This document shows, one piece after another, positions 5,236-17,553 of a DNA stretch of 19,397 bases (within the stretch, counting starts at the first letter, position 1; each line of letters starts with the position of its first letter). Origin of the DNA: Accumulibacter sp. Lineage in GTDB: Bacteria; Pseudomonadota; Gammaproteobacteria; Burkholderiales; Rhodocyclaceae. Location of the stretch: the NCBI GenBank assembly GCA_003538495.1, contig DPSD01000564.1, positions 617-20,013 on the forward strand, written 5' to 3'. The position numbers and the translations under genes are program-made. The notes beneath the pieces are model-generated. The model was not told the origin of the DNA. It ran no database searches and saw only the letters and a program-made list of their open reading frames with translations.

Positions 5236-6240
5236 TCAGCCGGCGCGCTGGCGGCGGCCGAAGCCAAGTCCGGCCAGGGCAAGACCGAGCAGTGCCAGAG
5301 TCGTTGGCTCGGGTACACCGACGGGCACCGTGAACCCCTGAACGACGATCACCTCATTGGCGCCGCCGAAGGTCGAGAAGAGGAAATCGCCGGTGACCGG
5401 ATCGATCGCCGCGCCTTCAGCTCCAACCAGCCCGGTAATGAAGTCCCTTCGTGTGTTCAACAGGGGATTGCCATTCGCGTCCAGATCGTACGCCGCTACG
5501 TTCCCTGCGCTGTACTCGGAAACCAGGAGGCTATTGACCGTGAAGCCCGCATTGCCGGCGGCGATGTAGACAAATCCTTCGGGACCGCCAGGAAGATTGT
5601 CCATCGCACCTGTCGACAGGTCGAGATCGATCTGCGTCACCGAGTCGATGTTGAAGGTGCCGCTACCATCGGGACTGTAGGTCGCGTTATACCATTCGCC
5701 ACCCGCCCACGAAACCAGCTTCATGCTACCCGCTCCGCCAAAGCCGGCCGGGACAAAATTGATCGCGGCGTGCGAGTCGGCGACGCCGAGCGGCGCCAGG
5801 TCGATCACCTTGTCTTCGGCGGTACTTCCCGGCTTGGTCTGACCGAGTTTGTTCACCGGCCATTGCGAGGTGAACAGAACACCTCCCGGTCCATAGGTCA
5901 CGCCGCCATCGTTGTACGTCCCGACGGTCCCAATGGCTGTTGGCGAACCGGTGAATCCGATGATGTGATTGCCGGCGTCGCGGGTGACGCCCAGCTCGTA
6001 GATCAAGCCCGCGTCCGTGTTTGCCGCGCCGCCGATGAGCAGCGTATTCGGGGAACCGGCCTTCAGCGTCAGGCCGCCATAGGGGGTCGGAAGCCCGGCG
6101 ATCGAGCCGAGGCTGGCAGCGGTGTAACTCCCGGCGAAATCGACTCCCAAGGTCAATGCCTGGGCGTTTCCGTGCACTCCCGCGAACAGGGCTGCGGCGC
6201 TCAGGCAATAGGTCAAACGTGTCTTCAAGGAATTATTCAT
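5236..6240 (-). CDS. PEP-CTERM sorting domain protein, beta-propeller-like
   Basis: A predicted exported surface protein of 334 aa. The start is ATG at 6240, with GGAGG at 6247-6251; the frame runs further upstream to 6360 without a better start. An N-terminal signal peptide (basic MNNSLKTR, hydrophobic YCLSAAALFAG, then a GNAQA-type cleavage area) precedes a Gly/Asp-rich body. The C-terminus is a PEP-CTERM signal: VPEP at about residues 309-312, a hydrophobic helix (TLALLGLALAGLGFG) and a final Arg cluster, the signal cleaved by exosortase. The body has repeats of the type GFVYIAAG and AIDPVTGDFLFSTFGG that resemble NHL/SMP-30-like propeller blades; that fold is inferred. Its ligand and role are unknown. 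It is a single-gene unit with its own terminator and sigma-54-type promoter. Confidence 0.9.
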   Translation of the reverse strand: MNNSLKTRLTYCLSAAALFAGVHGNAQALTLGVDFAGSYTAASLGSIAGLPTPYGGLTLKAGSPNTLLIGGAANTDAGLIYELGVTRDAGNHIIGFTGSPTAIGTVGTYNDGGVTYGPGGVLFTSQWPVNKLGQTKPGSTAEDKVIDLAPLGVADSHAAINFVPAGFGGAGSMKLVSWAGGEWYNATYSPDGSGTFNIDSVTQIDLDLSTGAMDNLPGGPEGFVYIAAGNAGFTVNSLLVSEYSAGNVAAYDLDANGNPLLNTRRDFITGLVGAEGAAIDPVTGDFLFSTFGGANEVIVVQGFTVPVGVPEPTTLALLGLALAGLGFGRRQRAG

Positions 6241-6353: not shown

Positions 6354-6369
6354 AGCACAAATCGTGCCT
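6354..6369 (-). promoter_or_regulatory. Sigma-54-type (-24/-12) promoter of the PEP-CTERM gene at 5236-6240
   Basis: Read on the minus strand this is AGGCACG-ATTT-GTGCT, against the RpoN consensus TGGCACG-N4-TTGCW. The essential GG and GC dinucleotides are present at the correct spacing, with two mismatches (first T to A, TTGC to GTGC). Transcription would start about 12 nt downstream, near 6342, giving a leader of about 100 nt before the ATG at 6240. Two other PEP-CTERM genes in the window have equivalent elements. Confidence 0.7.
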
Positions 6370-6400: not shown

Positions 6401-6413
6401 TATCAAGCTGTTG
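6401..6413 (+). promoter_or_regulatory. IHF-like binding site between far-upstream motif and sigma-54 promoter
   Basis: TATCAA-GCTG-TTG matches the IHF consensus WATCAANNNNTTR at every fixed position. It lies 31 nt upstream of the -24 element and 43 nt from the far-upstream motif at 6457-6472. That is where IHF would bend DNA to bring an enhancer-bound activator to a sigma-54 holoenzyme. Function is inferred from position and match. Confidence 0.5.
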
Positions 6414-6456: not shown

Positions 6457-6472
6457 TGTAAATTTTTTCGAC
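6457..6472 (-). promoter_or_regulatory. Far-upstream motif GTCG-N6-TTTACA (copy 1), candidate activator site
   Basis: On the minus strand this reads GTCG-AAAAAA-TTTACA. The same 4+6+6 pattern recurs upstream of the other two PEP-CTERM genes (11928-11943 and 12230-12245). It lies 87 nt upstream of the sigma-54 element, a normal distance for an enhancer of a sigma-54 activator. The PrsR response regulator known from PEP-CTERM systems is the natural candidate to bind it; this is inference. Confidence 0.6.
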
Positions 6473-6514
6473 ATCTTGGCGCGGTGGCAAGGCGCTTGTT
6501 CCGCCAGTCCTGCT

Positions 6515-7234
6515 TCATGTCACGTCCACCGGGCGTTTCAGGGCGGCATTCGGCTCCCGGTCAGCGGCGTCGGCCGGTGCCGCGATGGTCGGTCGGATCT
6601 GCCCGCCGGCAAGGTGCAGCGGCTGCATCTCGGGCAGAGCGATGACGTCGCGATCGTGGCAGGCAACCACCGTGGTGCTCTGCGGCGTGCAGAACGCGCG
6701 CAGCAGGTCAATCGTTTGCTGGCGCGATTCGGCGTCCAGATTGGCGGTCGGCTCGTCGAGCAGGAGCACCTTCGGCGCCAGCACCCAGGCGCGTGCCAGC
6801 GCGACGCGCTGGCGCTCGCCGCCCGATAGCTTCTGGGGTGGCGTCGCCAGCAGGTGTTCGAGTCGAGCCCAGGCGACCGCCGCTGCCACCATGCCCTCTC
6901 GCTGGCGCAGGTCGACCCTGCGGGCGCGCAGCCCATAGGCGATGTTGTCCGCGACGCTGGTGTGAAACAGGTAGGGATGCTGATGCACATAGATCACTTC
7001 GCGGCGCAGCCAGTCGGGATAGGGCTTCCAGTCGAAGCGCTGCCCCCGGTAGTGCCCGACACCGCTGTCGGGCGTTTCGATTCCGGCCACGATGCGCAAC
7101 AGGGTCGACTTGCCGCTGCCGTTTTCGCCAGTCAGCACGTAGCTCTTGCCAGCGGTGAGCGTCAGCTGGTCGATCGACAGCAGGCGCCGTTCGCCGAATG
7201 ACTTGGTCAACTCGGATACCGCCAACAGCGTCAT
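6515..7234 (-). CDS. tupC: Tungstate-type ABC transporter, ATP-binding subunit
   Basis: This is the cytoplasmic ATPase that powers oxyanion import. The product is 239 aa with a complete ABC set: Walker A GENGSGKST at residues 36-44, a Q-loop region at IYVHQHPYLF, signature LSGGERQR, Walker B VLLLDEP followed by the D-loop TANLD, and the switch His in VVACHD. ATG 7234 overlaps the permease stop as ATGA. The last ~30 residues after HLAGGQI are a Pro/Ala-rich tail without a recognised domain. Assignment to tungstate rather than molybdate or sulfate rests mainly on the TupA-like binding protein two genes upstream. No convincing terminator follows, so some transcription may continue into the PEP-CTERM control region on the same strand. 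Confidence 0.9.
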   Translation of the reverse strand: MTLLAVSELTKSFGERRLLSIDQLTLTAGKSYVLTGENGSGKSTLLRIVAGIETPDSGVGHYRGQRFDWKPYPDWLRREVIYVHQHPYLFHTSVADNIAYGLRARRVDLRQREGMVAAAVAWARLEHLLATPPQKLSGGERQRVALARAWVLAPKVLLLDEPTANLDAESRQQTIDLLRAFCTPQSTTVVACHDRDVIALPEMQPLHLAGGQIRPTIAAPADAADREPNAALKRPVDVT

Positions 7235-7932
7235 CGCCGCGATTCCCCCTGAAAGAAGGCGAAGGCCGAGTTGATCCCCAGCGCGACGACCATCAGCACG
7301 ATGCCCAGAGCAATTCCCTGCGCGAAGTCGCCCTTGCTCGTTTCGAGGGCGATCGCCGTCGGGATGTTACGGGTCACGCCGGCAATGTTGCCGCCGACCA
7401 TCAGTGAGCAGCCGATCTCCGAGACGACTCGGCCGAAGGCGTTGCAGACCGCGGCCATCAGCGCGAAGCGAACTTCGACGAGCATCGTCCAGGCGACGCG
7501 CGGAGCCGCTGCGCCGAGCGCCACGGCGGTCTCGCGCGCGCGCGGGTCGGCGCCCTGGATCGCCGACAAGGAGAAGGTAATCAGTACCGGCAGGGCGATC
7601 AGCACCTGGCCAATGACCATCGCCGTCTGGCTGAACAACAGCTGCAGCTGGCCAAAGACACCCTGGCGCGAGAGCAGCAGGTAGAGGAGCAGGCCGACGA
7701 CCACCGTCGGCGACGCCAGCAGCCCCTGAACGACCACCACCACGACCCGTCGCCCCGGAAAGCGCAGGGTGGCCAGCAGGTAGCCGGCGCCGACTCCCAG
7801 CGGCATGGCGATCAGCATCGCGCGCAGCGTTACCGAGAGCGATACGCCGACGATACCCCACAGGTCCGGGTCACCGGACAGCAGCAGCCGCAGCGCGGCG
7901 TGGGTGGCGTCGACCAGGGTCAAAGGCGGCAC
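7231..7932 (-). CDS. tupB: Tungstate-type ABC transporter, permease subunit
   Basis: An inner-membrane channel subunit of 233 aa in the binding-protein-dependent permease family, with about five or six hydrophobic segments (for example GIVGVSLSVTLRAMLIAMPLGV, TVVVGLLLYLLL, GIALGIVLMVVALGI). The cytoplasmic coupling EAA-type loop is ARETAVALGAAAPR. I placed the start at GTG 7932, two nt after the TAG of the binding-protein gene. The frame is open back to 8028, but that extension reads through the coding end of tupA and has no membrane or family character. No strong ribosome binding site precedes the GTG, so coupling to tupA translation is likely. The stop overlaps the ATPase start by 4 nt. Confidence 0.9.
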   Translation of the reverse strand: MPPLTLVDATHAALRLLLSGDPDLWGIVGVSLSVTLRAMLIAMPLGVGAGYLLATLRFPGRRVVVVVVQGLLASPTVVVGLLLYLLLSRQGVFGQLQLLFSQTAMVIGQVLIALPVLITFSLSAIQGADPRARETAVALGAAAPRVAWTMLVEVRFALMAAVCNAFGRVVSEIGCSLMVGGNIAGVTRNIPTAIALETSKGDFAQGIALGIVLMVVALGINSAFAFFQGESRR

Positions 7933-7934
7933 TG

Positions 7935-8768
7935 CTACTTGTTGTTGTCGGGAGTGACAAAGAACAATGGTTCTCCATTGGGGCGGAAGGCGCTGATCGC
8001 CGACCGCCCGGCAGCGCTGGTCAACCAATCGATCAGCGCCATGGCGTCGGTGAAATGGATCTCCGGATATTTCCCGGGGCTGACCGCGATGATGCCGTAA
8101 GGATTGAACATGCGCGGATCACCCTGCACCAGAATGTCCAGACCGGTCCTCGCCTGGTAGGTCACATAGGTGGCACGATCGGCCAGCGTGTAGGCTTGCA
8201 TCTCGCCGGCCATGGTCAGCACCTCGCCCATGCCCTGGCCGGCAGCGACGTGCCACGGTGCTCCGGTGACGGCCATCCCGAGCTGCCGCCAGTAGCCTTT
8301 TTCCATCCGCTCGGTTCCGGAATCGTCGCCGCGCGAGACAAAGCGCGCCTGGGTGGCGGCGATTTTGCGCATCGCCTGCAGGACGTCCCTGCCGCCGCGC
8401 ACGCCGGCCGGGTCGCTCTTCGGCCCGACCAGGACGAAGTCGTTATACATCACGTCGCGTCGCCCGACGCCGTGGCCGGCGGCGACGAAGGCATCTTCGG
8501 CGCGGCGGTCGTGGACCAGCACGACGTCGACGTCGCCGTTCTCGGCCAGTTTGAGCGCCTTTCCGGTACCAACCGAGACGACGTGCACCTTGACTCCCCG
8601 CGTTTGCTCGAACTGCGGCACGATGGCGCGCAGCAATCCGGAGTTGTCGGTGCTGGTGGTTGTCGCCAGGCGCAGTTCGCGCGCCTCGATCGCTGACGAA
8701 AAGACCAGGATCAGCAGTAGCGCCGGGGTCGCTGCCAGCCGCAGCACGCTCAAGAAAACGTGTGGCAT
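7935..8768 (-). CDS. tupA: Tungstate-binding periplasmic protein
   Basis: This is the solute-binding protein that captures the oxyanion in the periplasm for TupBC. The product is 277 aa from ATG 8768, supported by AAGGA at 8776-8780 seven nt upstream; a TTG at 8786 would add six residues. A hydrophobic signal peptide (LAATPALLLILVFSSAIEA) precedes the mature start RELRLATTTSTDNSGLL. The TTTS motif near the N-terminus is characteristic of TupA proteins and supplies oxyanion contacts. Other family stretches are VGTGKALKLAENGDVDVVLVH and MYNDFVLVGPKSDPAGV. Tungstate is the best-supported substrate; vanadate or molybdate cannot be excluded by sequence alone. It is the first gene of a minus-strand tupABC operon. 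Confidence 0.9.
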   Translation of the reverse strand: MPHVFLSVLRLAATPALLLILVFSSAIEARELRLATTTSTDNSGLLRAIVPQFEQTRGVKVHVVSVGTGKALKLAENGDVDVVLVHDRRAEDAFVAAGHGVGRRDVMYNDFVLVGPKSDPAGVRGGRDVLQAMRKIAATQARFVSRGDDSGTERMEKGYWRQLGMAVTGAPWHVAAGQGMGEVLTMAGEMQAYTLADRATYVTYQARTGLDILVQGDPRMFNPYGIIAVSPGKYPEIHFTDAMALIDWLTSAAGRSAISAFRPNGEPLFFVTPDNNK

Positions 8769-8936
8769 GCCGTTATCCTTGTTCAAAGTGATGATTCAGG
8801 GTTCGAGTTCAAGGTCCGCGGTAGTAACATGGACGTTTGGCTGCGACCGGCTCATGCCAGCTTCGGAAGGCATGGATTCAAGACTTCACGAGTCTAGCAG
8901 TGCAGGACTTCGACCCTCACGACAAGAACAACGACC

Positions 8937-10142
8937 ATGCCGGATTCCTATTCTTTCTTTCGCCCACTGCTTGCTGCCGACAAGCATTGGGCGGCGCTTG
9001 ACTGGTGTTACGCAAGCCCCGATCCGACCGATGCCAGCGATCTTGCTCGCTGCTTTGTCGATGCTGGCGCGGCTCCCCTCGCCAGGCTGATGCCGCTGGT
9101 GATGAGGATTGACCCGAGGTGGCTGAGCGACAGCGAGTTTATCGAGAAATTCGAGGCCAACCAAGCCATCTTTGTCCTCCCGGCTGCGGCTCTGGACGAC
9201 GGTCAGGCGATCGAACTGTGCGCCGGCCTGCGCAGGAAGGGGCGCCATCTGGCCTTGCAGCTTGACCATGCGGAACGTATCAAGGCGATCCCACGCGCCG
9301 CTTTTGATCATCTGCAAGTCGATGCGACGCTTGCCCGTTACGAACTGTCGCTCCTCGATTGGCGCGATCTCGAGCGCAACGCGTTGCGCAAGATCGCCAC
9401 CGGCGTCGGGTCGTTGGACGCCTTCGAGTGGCTGGCGGCCAGGCACTTCGACTTCAGTGACAGCAGCTTCGTGACGATCATTGACCCGACCTCCGGCGGC
9501 GAGCCGGACCTGGCACGGCTGAAGGTCCTCCGGCTGTTGAGCCTGGTCATTCAGGACGCCGACACCCGCGAGATCGAAGAGGTCTTCCGCCAGGAACCAC
9601 GGCTTTCGTATAACCTGTTGCGTCTGGTCAATTCGGTCGCCGTCGGCGCCAAGACCCGGATCAGCAGCTTCAATCAGGCCATCGCGCTGCTCGGTCGTCG
9701 ACAGTTGCAGCGCTGGCTGCAGTTGCTGATCTACGCCGACCAGCTGGCCCATGGCAACAAGCCCAATCCATTGCTGCAACTGGCAGCGGCACGGGGACGT
9801 CAGATGGAATTGCTGGCCGCCACCCTTGACTCGGGCAGCGACGCTCGGGAAATCGGTGACGCCGCGTTCATGACCGGCATCTTTTCCTTGCTCGACATCC
9901 TGCTCAAGATGCCGATGCGCGAAATCCTCAGCGACCTGCCTCTGCCGTCGGACGTTGCTGCCGCACTGGCGCTGCGCCAGGGTACGCTGGGCGCCCTGCT
10001 GGCCGTTGTACAGGCCGGAGAAACCAGGGATTTCGCGCAGGCGAAGGCGCTGCTGTCAAGCCTCGAGATCAGCCCGGCCGGCCATGCCACGGCGCAGATA
10101 GGCGCCTTCTACTGGGCTGCCAGAATCAGTTCGGAACGGTAG
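8937..10142 (+). CDS. HDOD domain protein with degenerate EAL-like N-terminus (YuxH/CdgJ type)
   Basis: A cytoplasmic signalling protein of 401 aa. The C-terminal half (about residues 195-401) is an HDOD domain: VFRQEPRLSYNLLRLVNSV, with NLLRLVN at 226-232, then ISSFNQAIALLGRRQLQRW and a helical remainder. The N-terminal half follows the size and layout of the EAL part of EAL-HDOD proteins, but I see no E-x-L motif, no DDFG-type motif and no other metal-binding residues. It is therefore unlikely to hydrolyse cyclic-di-GMP and may only bind nucleotide or a partner. Known relatives act in motility and biofilm control. ATG 8937 has no clear Shine-Dalgarno. The gene diverges from tupA and is followed by a broken EAL-type gene. 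Confidence 0.8.
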   Translation: MPDSYSFFRPLLAADKHWAALDWCYASPDPTDASDLARCFVDAGAAPLARLMPLVMRIDPRWLSDSEFIEKFEANQAIFVLPAAALDDGQAIELCAGLRRKGRHLALQLDHAERIKAIPRAAFDHLQVDATLARYELSLLDWRDLERNALRKIATGVGSLDAFEWLAARHFDFSDSSFVTIIDPTSGGEPDLARLKVLRLLSLVIQDADTREIEEVFRQEPRLSYNLLRLVNSVAVGAKTRISSFNQAIALLGRRQLQRWLQLLIYADQLAHGNKPNPLLQLAAARGRQMELLAATLDSGSDAREIGDAAFMTGIFSLLDILLKMPMREILSDLPLPSDVAAALALRQGTLGALLAVVQAGETRDFAQAKALLSSLEISPAGHATAQIGAFYWAARISSER

Positions 10143-10191
10143 CGCAGGTTGCCGATGGTCGCAAGGCAAGCGATTCCCGACCCTCCTGGCG

Positions 10192-10816
10192 ATGCATTGC
10201 CGGCAGCAGCAGAACCTCGCGGTGCTGGTGGTGAGCGCCGAGCGGACGTGCCGCCAGGCGCTGCTCCTCGATCAGGCCCGTGACGCGCTGATCACCATTG
10301 GCCTCGGTGGCTGCATCACTGGCTGGAACCCGGGGGCCGAACGCCTGTTCGGTTATGCGGCGACTGAGTCTCTCGGCCGGGATATCCGTCTGCTGCATGT
10401 CGATCCCAACGACGAGTGATTCCTCGGCTGTCCCGAAAGCGGTGGCCGGGAAACGACCGCAAGGCGAAAGAAGACGTCGGGAGAAAGCTTGTGGGGCAGC
10501 GTGTGGCGGAATCGTCGCTGCGACTTCGGTACCGGTTACTCCCGCCTGTCGTACCTCAAGCGCTTCCCAATCGACAATCTCAAGCTCGCTCGGCCAGTCC
10601 TTCGTGCGCGGCATCCCCTGCGACTCGGCGATTGCCAGGACGATCTTCAGCATCGCCAAAAACGTTGGCCTGTCGGTGATTGCCAAAGGCGTCGAGACTG
10701 CCGCGCAAATGGACTTCCTTCGCGAAGCCGGATGCGAGGAGATTCAGGGCTACTACTTCAGCCGACCGCTGCCAGCCGATCAGTTTTCCGAGTTGCTGTT
10801 GCGCACCAACCCGTGA
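10192..10816 (+). pseudogene. Remnant of a PAS...EAL cyclic-di-GMP protein
   Basis: Two pieces of one signalling protein remain. Bases 10276-10416 encode a PAS core (DALITIGLGGCITGWNPGAERLFGYAATE...) ending at an in-frame TGA (10417-10419). Bases 10519-10816 encode the C-terminal third of an EAL domain: DFGTGYSRLSYLKRFPIDNLKLAR in frame 1, then, after a one-base shift near 10593-10597, SFVRGI...IARTIFSIAKNVGLSVIAKGVET...GCEEIQGYYFSRPLPADQF in frame 2 to TGA 10814-10816. The middle of the PAS-GGDEF-EAL arrangement, including any GGDEF domain and the catalytic start of EAL, is missing. Stop, frameshift and deletion together argue for a dead gene rather than a sequencing error. Confidence 0.8.
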
Positions 10817-10969
10817 GGTATGGGCAGGTGCGCTTCGGAAGGGCGCTGCAAGTCATGCGCAGGGCGTGATCATGCGGTGTCTGGCGGGGGTTCTTGCCCG
10901 GCGTTTGGCGTGTGGCTTCGGCAAGTACCCCCCGAAAGGTAGGTGCGGGTGGGTCGAATGCCCCGCCGC

Positions 10970-10998
10970 AAAAAAAAGGGCAGGCGAAAGCCTGCCCT
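10970..10998 (-). terminator. Rho-independent terminator of the minus-strand PEP-CTERM gene
   Basis: Perfect 9-bp stem: arm 10977-10985 (agggcaggc), loop gaaa 10986-10989, arm 10990-10998. The A-run 10970-10977 becomes a U-tract on the minus strand. The hairpin lies 19 nt past the stop of the PEP-CTERM gene at 11018-11797 and closes it as a single-gene unit. The 10817-10969 stretch before it holds no recognisable gene. Confidence 0.9.
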
Positions 10999-11017
10999 CT
11001 GCCTTACCCTTCAGTTC

Positions 11018-11797
11018 TCAAATGTTGCGCTTGCGGGAAACGCCAAAACCTGCCAGCGCCAGGCCAAGCAAGGCCAGGGTTGCGGGCTCGGGTACCGTCG
11101 GACCACAGCCCGGCGTGCCCGGGACGCAAACCTGCTCTACGGTGCCGATGGTGAAGTCATCGAAGGCAAACACGTCACCTTGGCCCGTGGTGGTATTGAA
11201 AGTGACGCTGGTAAACTCTTCACCGACATTCTCGGCGATCAGTCCGTAAAACAGCACGGAGCCATCGGTCGAGCCGCTGCTGCCGACAGTATTAGGCACG
11301 GTCAGGCTGCCGCCATTGATGCCAAGGGTCAGCTGCCCGCCAAAATCGCCAATGTCGATGCCGTAGAAACCGAGGGCGGCGATCGATTGCGAAAAGGTGA
11401 TGGTGAAGTTGCCGCCGCCTCCCGCAGATACTTCCCAATACTTCGACGAGCTGGCGGAAGGAATGCTGTAGCGACCAGCTCCGTTGGTCGTGCCAGGAGC
11501 AACCGCTTGGACCGAACCGCTTCCGCCCGACAGCGTCGCGGTTCCGGCACCGGGGAAAGTGAGGATCAGCGGAGCGCTGGCTCCTGTGGTCTGAGTCTCA
11601 AAGGTTTCCGTGCCGACACCCGTCAGGAACGACAGAAAGCTGGCCTGTGCCGCATTCGAGTTGGGGGTGCTGGCCAGTGGTACCGAGGCGCTGCCGTTCG
11701 CGTCTTCGCCAAAGAAAGTCTGATAGGCATGGGCGCTGAACGAGGTGGCCGCGAGGCCGGCAACGGCCAAGGCACTGAGTAGGGGCTTGCGGAACAT
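11018..11797 (-). CDS. PEP-CTERM sorting domain protein (paralog A of a divergent pair)
   Basis: A predicted exported, exosortase-processed surface protein of 259 aa. ATG 11797 is preceded by AAGGAG at 11805-11810. A signal peptide (KPLLSALAVAGLAATSFSAHA) leads to YQTFFGEDANGS. The C-terminus is VPEP (about 235-238), a hydrophobic helix (TLALLGLALAGFGV) and SRKRNI. The body is Gly/Ser/Thr-rich with GFYGIDIGDFGGQL and VFAFDDFTIGTVEQVC; two Cys (about 224 and 231) lie just before PEP. It shares its whole length with the gene at 12415-13170 (AQASFLSFL.GVGTETFE, FPGAG.ATL.G, YFGLIA-like and FAFDD blocks). The family is not one I can assign a function. It has its own sigma-54-type promoter and terminator. 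Confidence 0.9.
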   Translation of the reverse strand: MFRKPLLSALAVAGLAATSFSAHAYQTFFGEDANGSASVPLASTPNSNAAQASFLSFLTGVGTETFETQTTGASAPLILTFPGAGTATLSGGSGSVQAVAPGTTNGAGRYSIPSASSSKYWEVSAGGGGNFTITFSQSIAALGFYGIDIGDFGGQLTLGINGGSLTVPNTVGSSGSTDGSVLFYGLIAENVGEEFTSVTFNTTTGQGDVFAFDDFTIGTVEQVCVPGTPGCGPTVPEPATLALLGLALAGFGVSRKRNI

Positions 11798-11848
11798 TTC
11801 TGATCTCCTTGGTGGAAAGTGGTCTTGACGAGCTTGCAGGATACGCTA

Positions 11849-11864
11849 AGCCAGAATCGTGCCA
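11849..11864 (-). promoter_or_regulatory. Sigma-54-type (-24/-12) promoter of the PEP-CTERM gene at 11018-11797
   Basis: On the minus strand this reads TGGCACG-ATTC-TGGCT. The -24 half is a perfect match to TGGCACG, and the -12 half has one mismatch (TTGC to TGGC) with GC kept at the correct spacing. The predicted start is near 11838, about 40 nt before the ATG at 11797. Confidence 0.78.
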
Positions 11865-11883
11865 GATCATAAACAAGCAATAG

Positions 11884-11896
11884 AATCAACATCCTG
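11884..11896 (+). promoter_or_regulatory. IHF-like site upstream of PEP-CTERM paralog A
   Basis: AATCAA-CATC-CTG matches the IHF consensus WATCAANNNNTTR with one mismatch. It lies between the sigma-54 element (ending 11864) and the far-upstream motif (from 11928), in the same orientation relative to its gene as the perfect match at 6401-6413. Support is moderate: a short motif with a mismatch, strengthened by position. Confidence 0.35.
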
Positions 11897-11927
11897 TGAG
11901 ATTTGGTCGGTGGTGCTGCTTGAGTGG

Positions 11928-11943
11928 TGTAAAAAAATCCGAC
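11928..11943 (-). promoter_or_regulatory. Far-upstream motif GTCG-N6-TTTACA (copy 2)
   Basis: On the minus strand this reads GTCG-GATTTT-TTTACA. It lies 63 nt upstream of the sigma-54 element of paralog A, almost the same distance as copy 3 from its own promoter (64 nt). It is a candidate binding site for the sigma-54 activator of PEP-CTERM genes. Confidence 0.6.
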
Positions 11944-12229
11944 GGCACCTCAGCGTCGATTCCCGCCAGGCGTGGTGCCAAATTGCGGCCAATCGCCGTC
12001 TTTCAGCGACCCGAGCTGCTTGCCAGCAGAACTCTGGAGGCGCCCTTGCCAGGCAACGGCGCCGTCACCGTCTCGGTCAGGAACCGGCATCAGGCGCCTC
12101 GACTGATCTTGGCAGGCGAGTCGAACGGGGCGCGCGACGGCGTCAATCCGCAGGTGCTGGGCCACGCGCCGCGAGGGGCGGGGCAGGGCGGCGCGCCCGG
12201 GAAAGGGGCAAACAGTCGGAAGGCGCGCT
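11944..12229 (+). other. Gene-free centre of the divergent PEP-CTERM control region
   Basis: This 286-bp stretch lies between the two far-upstream motifs. Several short frames cross it, but none has a ribosome binding site, a recognisable domain or a start that makes sense. I see no strong terminator, tRNA or long repeat in it. Its GC content is high, unlike the AT-rich flanks next to the promoters. It may be a decayed coding segment, but I cannot name an ancestor. Confidence 0.5.
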
Positions 12230-12245
12230 GTCGATATTCTTTACA
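12230..12245 (+). promoter_or_regulatory. Far-upstream motif GTCG-N6-TTTACA (copy 3)
   Basis: Reads GTCG-ATATTC-TTTACA. It overlaps a 6-bp inverted repeat, cgatat-N7-atatcg (12232-12250), which is not seen in the other two copies. It lies 64 nt upstream of the sigma-54 element of paralog B. An AT-rich stretch (about 12281-12308) that could bend DNA lies in between, but it holds no clear IHF consensus. Confidence 0.6.
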
Positions 12246-12309
12246 TATCGCCGCCTAGCCTGCCATTTCCATGCGCATAACGTATTGCTAAATAAAGAAT
12301 TTAAAATCC

Positions 12310-12325
12310 TGGTACGCTTGTTGCT
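12310..12325 (+). promoter_or_regulatory. Sigma-54-type (-24/-12) promoter of the PEP-CTERM gene at 12415-13170
   Basis: Reads TGGTACG-CTTG-TTGCT. It matches TGGCACG-N4-TTGCW at every fixed position but one (C to T in the -24 box). The predicted start is near 12336, giving a leader of about 79 nt. This is the best of the three sigma-54-type elements in the window. Confidence 0.82.
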
Positions 12326-12414: not shown

Positions 12415-13170
12415 ATGTTGAACAAATCGATCATGACCGCGATCGCAGCGGTTGGCCTCGGCGCAGCGTCGTTCGGCGCGCACGCCTACACCACCTTCTC
12501 GGGTATTGACGCCGACGGCTCAGGGGGCACGCGGGCTTCCTTCACCAACTCCGAAGCGGCCCAGGCAAGCTTCCTGTCTTTCCTGCAGGGTGTGGGCACC
12601 GAGACTTTCGAAGGCATCCCCGCTGGCACGACGCCGCCGATCGGCCTGGTTTTCCCCGGTGCGGGCGCCGCCACCCTGACCGGTAGCGCGACGGTCGTAT
12701 TCCAGGGCGCCGGCACCAATGGCGTTGGCCGCTATCCGCACTCTGGCGTCCATTTTGTCGAGACCAGCTCGACCTCTTTCGGTGTGACCTTTGGCTCCAA
12801 CGTCGGGGCCTTCGGGTTCTTCGGAATGGACATCGGCGAGTTCGGCGGGGATCTCTGGATCCGCGTCCACAAAGCGGGTGGTGGCTCGGAAGATATTGAC
12901 GTACCGAACGTACCGGCAACACCCTTCCAGGACGGGTCGGCTCTCTACTTCGGTTTGATCGCGACCAGCGCGGCCGAGGAGTTTACCTCCATCGACTTCT
13001 TCGATACCAACCCAGGCGGCGGCGATTTCTTCGCTTTCGACGACATGACGGTCGGCTCGCTGCAGCAGGTTTGCCAGACGGGCTGCAACGTCCCCGAGCC
13101 GGGCAGCCTGGCGCTCGGCGGTCTGGCACTGCTCGGCCTCGGTGCCGCTCGCCGTCGCAAGAACGGCTGA
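12415..13170 (+). CDS. PEP-CTERM sorting domain protein (paralog B of a divergent pair)
   Basis: A predicted exported, exosortase-processed surface protein of 251 aa. ATG 12415 follows AGGAG (12404-12408) by 6 nt; the frame's opening at 12328 has no such support. The signal peptide (NKSIMTAIAAVGLGAASFGAHA) leads to YTTFSGIDADGSGG. The body shares AAQASFLSFLQGVGTETFE, FPGAGAATLTGS, GFFGMDIGEFGGDL, YFGLIATSAAEEFTSI and FFAFDDMTVG with the divergent paralog. The tail has Cys 220 and 224, VPEP at about 226-229, a hydrophobic Leu/Gly helix and ARRRKNG. The Cys pair directly before PEP, the shared blocks and similar length show a duplication. Ligand and function are unknown; a role in the cell envelope or exopolysaccharide matrix is inferred from the PEP-CTERM class. 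Confidence 0.92.
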   Translation: MLNKSIMTAIAAVGLGAASFGAHAYTTFSGIDADGSGGTRASFTNSEAAQASFLSFLQGVGTETFEGIPAGTTPPIGLVFPGAGAATLTGSATVVFQGAGTNGVGRYPHSGVHFVETSSTSFGVTFGSNVGAFGFFGMDIGEFGGDLWIRVHKAGGGSEDIDVPNVPATPFQDGSALYFGLIATSAAEEFTSIDFFDTNPGGGDFFAFDDMTVGSLQQVCQTGCNVPEPGSLALGGLALLGLGAARRRKNG

Positions 13171-15149: not shown

Positions 15150-15692
15150 ATGATCATTACTATCGCGATCATGGCTCTGGGCGCCATTGTCCTGGGCGCG
15201 GCGCTCGGGTATGCCTCGATCAAGTTCAAGGTCGAGGGCGACCCGCTGGTCGAGAAGATCGAAGCGATACTGCCGCAGACGCAGTGCGGGCAGTGCGGCT
15301 ACCCCGGCTGCAAACCGTACGCGACGGCGATTTCGGCCGGCGAAGCGGACATCAACCTGTGCCCGCCGGGCGGCATGGATGGCGTGCGCAAGCTGGCCGA
15401 CCTGCTCGGCCGCGAAGTCAAGCCGCTGGAAGCCGAGGAGAAGCCGAAACAGGTGGCGATCATCGACGAACAGACGTGTATCGGCTGCACCCTTTGTATC
15501 CAGGCGTGTCCGGTCGACGCCATCGTCGGTGCCGCCAAGCAGATGCACACGATCATCGAACCGCTGTGTACCGGTTGCGAGCTGTGCGTCAATCCCTGTC
15601 CGGTCGAGTGCATCGTGATGCAGCCGATCGCCGAGAAGCTCGACAACTGGAAGTGGAAGTACCCGGTGATCGAAATCAAGCGTGCCGCCTGA
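15150..15692 (+). CDS. rnfB: Rnf complex iron-sulfur subunit RnfB
   Basis: RnfB is a membrane-anchored iron-sulfur protein that receives electrons in the Rnf chain. The product is 180 aa. An N-terminal membrane helix ([20 protein letters not shown]) precedes the four-Cys motif of the Rnf/Fes domain: Cys 46, 49, 54 and 71. Two ferredoxin-type [4Fe-4S] motifs follow: Cys 110, 113, 116 and 120 ([12 protein letters not shown]), and Cys 140, 143, 146 and 150 ([12 protein letters not shown]). It matches the short RnfB/RsxB type of proteobacteria rather than the multi-cluster clostridial form. It starts 13 nt after rnfA without a strong ribosome binding site. Confidence 0.96.
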
Positions 15693-15702
15693 GGCGACCG
15701 GA

Positions 15703-17553
15703 ATGCTGCAGCGATTGTTCAGCTTCAAGGGTGGCGTCAAACCGCAGACCCACAAGGCGCCGTCGGTGCAGCAGCCGATTGCTCAGGCGCCGCTGCCGGC
15801 GCGTCTGTACGTACCCTTGCACCAGAACATCGGCGGAGTGCCGAACCCGCTGGTCGAAGCCGGCGACCAGGTGCTGAAAGGGCAGTTGATCGGCGGCGCC
15901 GACGGCTGGATGTCGGCCGCCGTGCATGCGCCTACTTCGGGAACCGTGTTGGCGATCGAGGAACACCTTGCCGCGCATCCGTCGGGGCTGACGACGCTGA
16001 CGGTGATCATCGAGCCCGACGGGCGCGACGAGTGGATTGTCCGCACACCGTTCGACCACCGCGCTCTGGCGCCCGAGCGGGTGCGCGAATTGCTGCGCGA
16101 CGCCGGCGTCGTCGGTCTCGGTGGCGCCGTCTTTCCGAGTCATGCCAAGCTCACCGCCGCTCGGTCGGTGCCGGTGGACGAGCTGGTGATCAACGGCGCC
16201 GAGTGCGAGCCGTACATGAGCTGCGACGACATGCTGATGCGTGAGCGTGGCGAAGAGATCGTCCGCGGTATCGCGATCTTCCGTGAGCTGCTGGCTGCCC
16301 GGCGGGTATTGATCGGCATCGAGGACAACAAGCCGGAAGCGATCACGGCGATGCGGTGCGCGGTACAGCAGCTCGGCGAGGACTATCAGGTCGTCGCCGT
16401 TCCGACACGCTATCCGGCCGGCGGTGCCAAGCAGCTGATTCGCGTGTTGACCGGCAAGGAAGTGCCGGCCAGCAAGCGCTCGACCGACCTTGGCGTGCAG
16501 TGTTTCAACGTCGCCACGGTGTACACCGCCTTCCGTGCGCTGGCCTGCGGTGAGCCGGTGATCGCGCGCATCGTCACCCTGACCGGCAATCTCGAACAGC
16601 CGCGCAACTGGGAAGTGCGACTCGGCACGCCGCTGCGCGACCTGGTCGCTCTTGGTCGACCGAAAGCCGACACCAGCCGCTACCTGATGGGTGGGCCGAT
16701 GATGGGTTTCGAGATTCCCGATCTGGACGCGCCGGTGGTCAAGGCGACCAATTGCGTCATCGCCGGCTCGCCGACGATGTTCCCACAGAGTCCGCCCGAA
16801 ATGCCGTGCATTCGCTGTGGCGACTGTGCCGAGGTCTGCCCGCACGAGCTGCAACCCTTCGAGTTGTACTGGTTCGCGCGCGCGCGAAACTTCGGCAAGA
16901 CCCAGGAGTACCACATCTTCGATTGTATCGAGTGCGGCTGCTGCAGCTACGTTTGCCCCTCACACATTCCGCTGGTGCAGTATTTCCGTTTCGCCAAGAG
17001 CGAAATCTGGTCGCGCGAGCGCGAGAAGAACGCCGCCGACGCGGCCAAGGCACGCTTCGAACTGCGCAATGCGCGCGAAGAGCGCGAGCAGGCCGAGAAA
17101 GCCGGGCGGCTGGCCCGCGCGGCGGCGGCCCGGGCCGCCGAGAAGAAGGCGCCGCCGGTCATCGCTTCGGCCGCGGCCCCAGCGACCAGCCTTGCCGCAA
17201 GCCCGGCCACCAGCGCAGCGGTGGTGACTGCCGAGCAGTCGGTGCCGGTGGCGCCCGCAGCGGGCAGCGACGCGGCCGTCTCCTCGGAAGCGCAACCGGC
17301 GGCGCCCGCGCTCGATGCCGACGAGGTCAAGAAGGCGACCATCGTCGCGGCGATGGAGCGTGCTCGCGCGCAGCGCGCGGTCGTGCAGCCGCGAAACACC
17401 GAGCAACTGACCGCCGAGCAGAAGCGACAGCTTGCCGCGGTCGATGCGCGGAGGGCCGCTCTGCGGGCAGAACAGGACGCGACGACCGCAGATCGGCCCG
17501 GCCCCGAGAGAACACTGGAAACGCCGGAGACGCCCAAGCGTAGGGCTGACTGA
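15703..17553 (+). CDS. rnfC: Rnf complex subunit RnfC (NADH-interacting, 2 x [4Fe-4S])
   Basis: RnfC is the peripheral cytoplasmic subunit with Nqo1-like folds. I chose ATG 15703 because GAGG (15691-15694) lies 8 nt upstream; a GTG at 15682 would overlap rnfB. The product is 616 aa. The order is: an RnfC N-terminal barrel-sandwich domain (YVPLHQNIGGVPNPLVEAGD...); an Nqo1-like nucleotide-binding region (GVVGLGGAVFPSHAKL, VINGAECEPYMSCDD); an SLBB-like region; two cluster motifs starting at Cys 369 (CIRCGDCAEVCP) and Cys 408 (CIECGCCSYVCP); and, from about residue 440, an Ala/Glu/Arg-rich tail of ~175 residues that is first coiled-coil-like and then low-complexity. Long tails of this sort are known in proteobacterial RnfC. 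Confidence 0.96.
   Translation: MLQRLFSFKGGVKPQTHKAPSVQQPIAQAPLPARLYVPLHQNIGGVPNPLVEAGDQVLKGQLIGGADGWMSAAVHAPTSGTVLAIEEHLAAHPSGLTTLTVIIEPDGRDEWIVRTPFDHRALAPERVRELLRDAGVVGLGGAVFPSHAKLTAARSVPVDELVINGAECEPYMSCDDMLMRERGEEIVRGIAIFRELLAARRVLIGIEDNKPEAITAMRCAVQQLGEDYQVVAVPTRYPAGGAKQLIRVLTGKEVPASKRSTDLGVQCFNVATVYTAFRALACGEPVIARIVTLTGNLEQPRNWEVRLGTPLRDLVALGRPKADTSRYLMGGPMMGFEIPDLDAPVVKATNCVIAGSPTMFPQSPPEMPCIRCGDCAEVCPHELQPFELYWFARARNFGKTQEYHIFDCIECGCCSYVCPSHIPLVQYFRFAKSEIWSREREKNAADAAKARFELRNAREEREQAEKAGRLARAAAARAAEKKAPPVIASAAAPATSLAASPATSAAVVTAEQSVPVAPAAGSDAAVSSEAQPAAPALDADEVKKATIVAAMERARAQRAVVQPRNTEQLTAEQKRQLAAVDARRAALRAEQDATTADRPGPERTLETPETPKRRAD

Follow-up and report, generated by a model that had tools for sequence, protein, structure and literature searches.

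The stretch of Accumulibacter sp. DNA considered here (contig DPSD01000564.1; 19,397 nucleotides in all, referred to throughout as the window) carries three genes whose products all match the Pfam model PF07589 (PEP-CTERM) above its cut-off. Each of the three is preceded by a copy of the motif GTCG-N6-TTTACA, a predicted enhancer for the activator PrsR, and then by a sigma54 -24/-12 element. Between enhancer and promoter, a match to the consensus of integration host factor (IHF) is found at all three genes (9/9, 8/9 and 8/9, respectively), a site that the earlier note on this DNA had missed. In related bacteria the distance from enhancer to promoter is stepped mostly in whole helical turns, and the best explanation of these three-part promoters is, quite probably, a stereospecific loop of PrsR, IHF and sigma54 polymerase. 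The features on which the argument is built are the following.

6457..6472, minus strand: motif 1, the predicted PrsR enhancer of gene 1; exact match, fitting motif 1 of Haft et al. 2006
6401..6413, minus strand: IHF-like site CAACAGCTTGATA of gene 1; matches YAANNNNTTGATW at 9/9, inferred bend centre 55.5 + 32.5 (nt from TTTACA and nt to GG, respectively)
6355..6368, minus strand: sigma54 -24/-12 element GGCACGATTTGTGC of gene 1, 88 nt after TTTACA
5236..6240, minus strand: PEP-CTERM gene 1; PF07589 at 27.7 bits (cut-off 20.7), ATG at 6240 chosen by eye
11928..11943, minus strand: motif 1, the predicted PrsR enhancer of gene 2; exact match
11884..11896, minus strand: IHF-like site CAGGATGTTGATT of gene 2; 8/9, inferred bend centre 43.5 + 20.5
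11850..11863, minus strand: sigma54 element GGCACGATTCTGGC of gene 2, 64 nt after TTTACA
11018..11797, minus strand: PEP-CTERM gene 2; PF07589 at 32.0 bits
12230..12245, plus strand: motif 1, the predicted PrsR enhancer of gene 3; exact match
12278..12290, plus strand: IHF-like site TAACGTATTGCTA of gene 3; 8/9, inferred bend centre 44.5 + 20.5
12291..12303, plus strand: second IHF-like match AATAAAGAATTTA of gene 3; 8/9 in the other orientation (WATCAANNNNTTR), inferred bend centre again 44.5 + 20.5
12311..12324, plus strand: sigma54 element GGTACGCTTGTTGC of gene 3, 65 nt after TTTACA
12415..13170, plus strand: PEP-CTERM gene 3, paralogue of gene 2; PF07589 at 28.5 bits, ATG at 12415 chosen by eye

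An exact scan of the whole window confirmed the motif positions and orientations reported in the earlier note: there are exactly three copies, each upstream of, and oriented toward, a PEP-CTERM gene, and the hexamer TTTACA occurs in the window at these three sites only. Allowing one mismatch adds a sole further match, at 16510-16525 on the plus strand, which falls inside an open reading frame (ORF) at 15682-17553 (RnfC-like by eye); shuffled versions of the window averaged 0.43 matches at no more than one mismatch, and none of 200 shuffles reached four. Because the motif had been picked after seeing the data, a post-hoc test was also run in which any two-block pattern of ten fixed bases (4+6, 6+4 or 5+5, with a gap of 0-10) was allowed. 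The three real upstream regions share one such pattern, as did 1 of 1000 dinucleotide-shuffled upstream triplets, in keeping with the note's judgement that a three-fold chance occurrence is unlikely. Genes 2 and 3 are divergent neighbours and paralogues (50% identity), so that the motif common to both is not fully independent, whilst a comparison of gene 1 with gene 2 found no significant similarity. The last base of TTTACA lies 88, 64 and 65 nt from the first G of the -24 GG at genes 1, 2 and 3, respectively (the 87, 63 and 64 of the note are correct as counted to the base before GG), and the -24 element of gene 1 reads AGGCAC, not TGGCAC.

The motif itself has been described before. The idea that it might be novel had to be rejected, as it is the 17-nt ‘motif 1’ of Haft et al. 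2006 (PMC1569441), which ends in TTTACA and stands before a sigma54 motif (‘motif 2’) at a spacing of 62.8 ± 10.6 nt (range 32-92). Of 167 proteobacterial PEP-CTERM genes, 99 were reported to have it upstream; its phylogenetic profile matches PrsR, PrsK and PrsT, and it was assigned to PrsR (Haft et al. 2006). In Aquincola, pepA is RpoN-dependent, its transcription start has been mapped at a -24/-12 element and a ‘previously predicted enhancer’ is mentioned (PMC9850573). A literature search for TTTACA with PEP-CTERM, from which most subscription papers were absent, turned up Haft et al. 2006 only, and other searches of the same library, at the level of listings, found no report of IHF at PEP-CTERM promoters. 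Helical phasing of motif 1 is described neither in the text of section 7 of Haft et al. 2006 nor in what the literature search returned, so that the phasing, which the note had likewise thought possibly undescribed, retains that standing.

The arrangement was then followed in two families of relatives: the family-level group of genome G007 (the first family; 249 genomes, with the PyrD of the window at most 83% identical to its members) and that of G002 (the second family; 260 genomes). The composite GTCG-N6-TTTACA-N45..75-GGYACG-N6-GC, with the same pattern read backwards as the control, gave 112 matches in 65 of the 249 genomes of the first family (control 3) and 38 matches in 27 of the 260 genomes of the second (control 4). 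In the relatives' logo the motif extends to TGTCGR-N4-YTTTACA, 17 nt in length, in which GTCG and TTTACA are givens, having been part of the search pattern. A PEP-CTERM ORF, recognized by its tail pattern, lies downstream of 87 of the 112 first-family loci (vs 4 when the reverse strand is read), of 33 of the 38 in the second family and of 32 of the 40 in the near/far set of spacings. A flipped enhancer was also tried in the 249 genomes and rejected, its 3 matches equalling the 3 of its own control. Repeated enhancer copies were likewise tried and rejected: 195 upstream regions contained 9 at 11/13 or better, with no common distance, and the 198 spacers contained one (L219, 51 nt before GG).

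The presence of PrsR was called by TIGR02915 over its cut-off, and for this comparison the composite was accepted wherever its spacing lay between 14 and 106 nt. PrsR is found in 123 of the 249 first-family genomes: in 76 of the 80 with the composite vs 47 of the 169 without it (odds ratio 49). The co-occurrence with prsR that the note proposed to check is borne out in these relatives, and its reading of the motif as an enhancer for a PrsR-type activator is supported, being at the same time a prediction already published by Haft et al. 2006. One genome, G043, carries two composites (L157 and L158) before PEP-CTERM-like genes, both on the ladder of distances described below, and has no PrsR over the family cut-off; the genome may be incomplete or may use a different activator.

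The distances from TTTACA to the -24 GG form a ladder. Among the 112 first-family loci the spacings are 51-54 nt (25 loci), 61-67 nt (62) and 72-75 nt (25), with none at 45-50, 55-60 or 68-71 nt, and all 38 loci of the second family lie within the same three rung windows. In the farther range of 76-106 nt the first family gave 38 matches (control 0), which fall at 76 (5), 85-89 (20) and 96-99 nt (5) and elsewhere (8), such that 30 of the 38 are on rungs. Over the 249 genomes the distances therefore cluster near 53, 64, 75, 87 and 98 nt, and genome G165 alone holds loci at 53, 53, 54, 65, 74, 75, 87, 88, 89 and 98 nt. When similar spacers were clustered, 90 of 93 representatives were on the ladder. 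The step estimated from the clustered representatives is 11.1 bp (bootstrap 10.95-11.37), becoming 11.2 bp (10.99-11.44) once doubtful loci at 43 nt are left out and 11.3 bp (11.06-11.58) when all 153 first-family spacings are used unclustered; a looping study in E. coli put the turn in vivo at ~11 bp (PMC8501960). The spacings of 64 and 65 nt in the window fall on the main rung and that of 88 nt on the 85-89 rung, so that the helical phasing suggested for the three genes is supported and, with a step of ~11.1-11.2 bp, extended to the relatives.

The IHF consensus used for scanning the spacers was WATCAANNNNTTR. In print, the consensus can be found as WATCARXXXXTTR (PMC7962754). Matches within the spacers are clustered. 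Those in one orientation begin for the most part 32-34 nt ahead of GG and those in the other 19-21 nt ahead of it, and either way the inferred centre of the bend lies 20.5 bp upstream of GG. This offset agrees with the structure of IHF on DNA. At this fixed place, a match of at least 8/9 is present in 40 of the 112 first-family loci (shuffles mean 0.88, maximum 5; reversed consensus 0) and in 26 of the 38 second-family loci (shuffles mean 0.11, maximum 2; reversed consensus 0); counting one locus per spacer cluster, the match is found in 28 of 89 and 19 of 29, respectively. Three in-phase centres together hold matches at 45 first-family and 28 second-family loci vs 3 of 112 and 0 of 38 for two centres shifted by half a turn, and relaxing the match to 7/9 at any of the in-phase centres raises the first family to 79 of 112 (shuffles 14.5). 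In the near/far set, any in-phase centre is occupied in 8 of 40 (shuffles 0.5). None of 152 sigma54-like sequences without TTTACA within 120 nt in the DNA retrieved, which are probably mostly not promoters, has an IHF match at the place. The IHF alpha model TIGR00987 was over its cut-off in all 14 carrier genomes tested, the window genome not being among them. For the commoner orientation (44 sites), the AT content flanking the IHF-like site is 0.76 on the promoter side vs 0.60 on the other; no site in the second orientation qualified for this comparison. IHF prefers AT-rich DNA on that flanking side.

Taking the inferred bend centre as the joint of two arms, the enhancer arm is mainly ~32.5, 43 or 54 bp long (a few are 66). 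For the promoter arm 20.5 bp is the usual length, with ~10.5 or 31-32 seen less often. The commonest pairs are 32.5+20.5 (the rung at 53), 43+20.5 (64), 54+20.5 or 43+31 (75) and 54+32 (87), with minor clusters at other places, for example 28+36 (5 matches, on the 64 rung). At gene 1 of the window the arms are 55.5+32.5, each exceeding its counterpart at genes 2 and 3 (43.5+20.5 and 44.5+20.5) by about one turn. With an IHF-like site in the spacer, the ~23 extra nt of gene 1 would be explained in this way: the two helical turns seen in them by the note amount to about one added turn on each side of that site.

Put together, each gene would have a directional PrsR-binding enhancer (TGTCGR-N4-YTTTACA), a kinking IHF site and a -24/-12 element. 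Phosphorylated PrsR, of the NtrC type, would bind the enhancer, the IHF bend would bring it to sigma54-RNA polymerase on a fixed face, and ATP hydrolysis would open the promoter. Given such a stereospecific geometry, arm lengths would be expected to change mostly in whole turns, and evolution would tolerate a change of length in either arm mostly by steps of ~11.1-11.2 bp. As far as sequence can speak to it, support extends to the motif, its orientation, the ladder, the positioned IHF consensus and the co-occurrence with PrsR; binding by PrsR and IHF, the loop itself and its effects on transcription are inferred.

A number of points weigh against this loop. The rung windows were set on the first family, and the bend-centre offset was taken from its two orientation peaks and then fixed. 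An IHF match of 8/9 at the main place is missing from 72 of the 112 discovery loci and present in 1 of the 40 in the near/far set; under the loosest clustering of the first family it is found in 12 of 62 representatives, one cluster comprising 50 loci. The strict composite is absent from 47 of the 123 PrsR genomes, and 4 composite genomes have no PrsR over the cut-off. A rung at 43 nt was considered and is not established: the nearer range of 14-44 nt gave 3 matches (two at 43) vs 5 for the control, so no rung is claimed there. The ladder does not accommodate 8 of the 198 loci (82, 82, 83, 95, 102 three times and 104 nt). Of these, 82 (L225) and 83 (L239) stand as plain exceptions; 82 (L215) and 95 (L227) have no PEP-CTERM tail and may be chance matches, and at the 104-nt locus another enhancer stands nearer, 51 nt from GG. 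The three loci at 102 nt (L222, L224 and L226, in G117, G226 and G244) have in common an IHF-like site at 66.5 + 35.5 and may be related to one another. Beyond the two families, the composite was found in 4 of 151 Methylococcales genomes (4 matches, control 1), 2 of seven mixed genomes (2 matches, control 0) and 2 of the 22 genomes in the family of G004 (2 matches vs 3 in the control). All 8 of these loci have spacings of 62-74 nt and only 2 have a PEP-CTERM tail, thin evidence which is for that reason not relied on.

The alternative that survives best, although we consider it unlikely, is that only the enhancer and promoter as published are at work, that the phasing comes from the stiffness of bare DNA alone and that an AT-rich spacer merely resembles IHF sites. 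Loops without a bender do prefer whole turns (PMC8501960), one class of sigma54 enhancers has no IHF sites and in some cases a conserved AT-rich sequence (PMC4740811), and the 72 discovery loci without a strict match are also in its favour; however, dinucleotide shuffles that preserve the AT content give ~1 match vs the 40 observed, and the reversed consensus with no match at the place, the nearly empty half-turn centres and the 26 of 38 in the second family argue in the same direction. A ladder that reflects the shared ancestry of a few promoter copies rather than a mechanical constraint is decidedly improbable. Genes 2 and 3 are indeed paralogues, and chaining at more than 15% shared 6-mers places 97 of the 198 spacers in one cluster, but the representatives of similar spacers stay on the ladder in all but 3 of 93 cases, the second family repeats three rungs, and equal steps with empty gaps are unexpected from descent alone, five rungs being spanned by G165 by itself. 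That the three motifs in the window are due to chance or simple paralogy, as the 50% identity of the divergent neighbours might suggest, can safely be set aside in view of the single matching triplet in 1000 shuffles, the recurrence of motif and promoter in 65 of 249 genomes and the lack of significant similarity between genes 1 and 2.

Other genes in the window lie close to these promoters. At 10298-10869 on the plus strand two overlapping frames each hold part of an EAL domain (PF00563), with positions 175-236 of the model matched over the cut-off in one and positions 153-179 below it in the other; the segment has the look of a cyclic-di-GMP phosphodiesterase gene reduced to a frameshifted remnant, situated between an HDOD gene and PEP-CTERM gene 2. 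The HDOD-domain protein (PF08668; 8937-10142, plus strand) adjoins this remnant and is near the PEP-CTERM genes. An apparent ABC operon (6515-8786, minus strand) comprises a periplasmic binding protein (PF12849), an ORF that is permease-like by eye and had no Pfam match, and an ABC-type ATPase that reached no NCBIfam cut-off among the 25 families listed. The enhancer of PEP-CTERM gene 1 starts 42 bp beyond the stop of the ATPase.

With a stereospecific loop of PrsR, IHF and sigma54 polymerase as the preferred explanation, a PrsR box predicted 20 years ago becomes a precise and testable promoter grammar, made up of the direction of the enhancer, its stepped distances and an IHF-like site at a set position. 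In bacteria of activated sludge and biofilms this grammar could help to recognize PrsR-regulated genes from their sequence, and the ladder offers a natural data set on how strict the phasing of enhancer loops is in cells. A bolder proposal, to which we would give slightly better than even chances, is that PEP-CTERM promoters are a natural ruler: PrsR would meet sigma54 polymerase via one rigid IHF-kinked fold whose two arms have changed almost only in whole turns, in the living cells of many uncultured bacteria the ladder would give a reading of the helical repeat of DNA (~11.1-11.2 bp per turn), and a whole surface-protein regulon would be IHF-dependent.

IHF-assisted sigma54 promoters are familiar from nifH with NifA and from glnHp2. 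These two examples are single promoters, whereas here a dispersed family is seen with stepped arms on both sides of the IHF-like site. The promoter is of a known kind, as sigma54 enhancers containing an IHF site are a named class, bacterial enhancers being divided broadly into two (PMC4740811). The likeness to the PrsR box of Haft et al. 2006 is close: a 17-nt box ending in TTTACA, a spacer to the sigma54 -24(GG)/-12(GC) element within 32-92 nt (88, 64 and 65 nt in the window) and a PEP-CTERM gene downstream. Section 7 of that paper, unlike the present analysis, gives the spacing as mean, standard deviation, maximum and minimum, with no helical steps and no IHF-like third element; in the literature searched no earlier description of the phasing or of IHF at these promoters was found, and the phasing goes beyond the published prediction. 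The sigma54 enhancers of the Vibrio qrr genes are reported to tolerate insertions and deletions of 10-11 bp and not those of 5-6 bp (PMC4740811). That system consists of 61 genes in one genus, whereas here largely dissimilar spacers from two families fall on five clear rungs.

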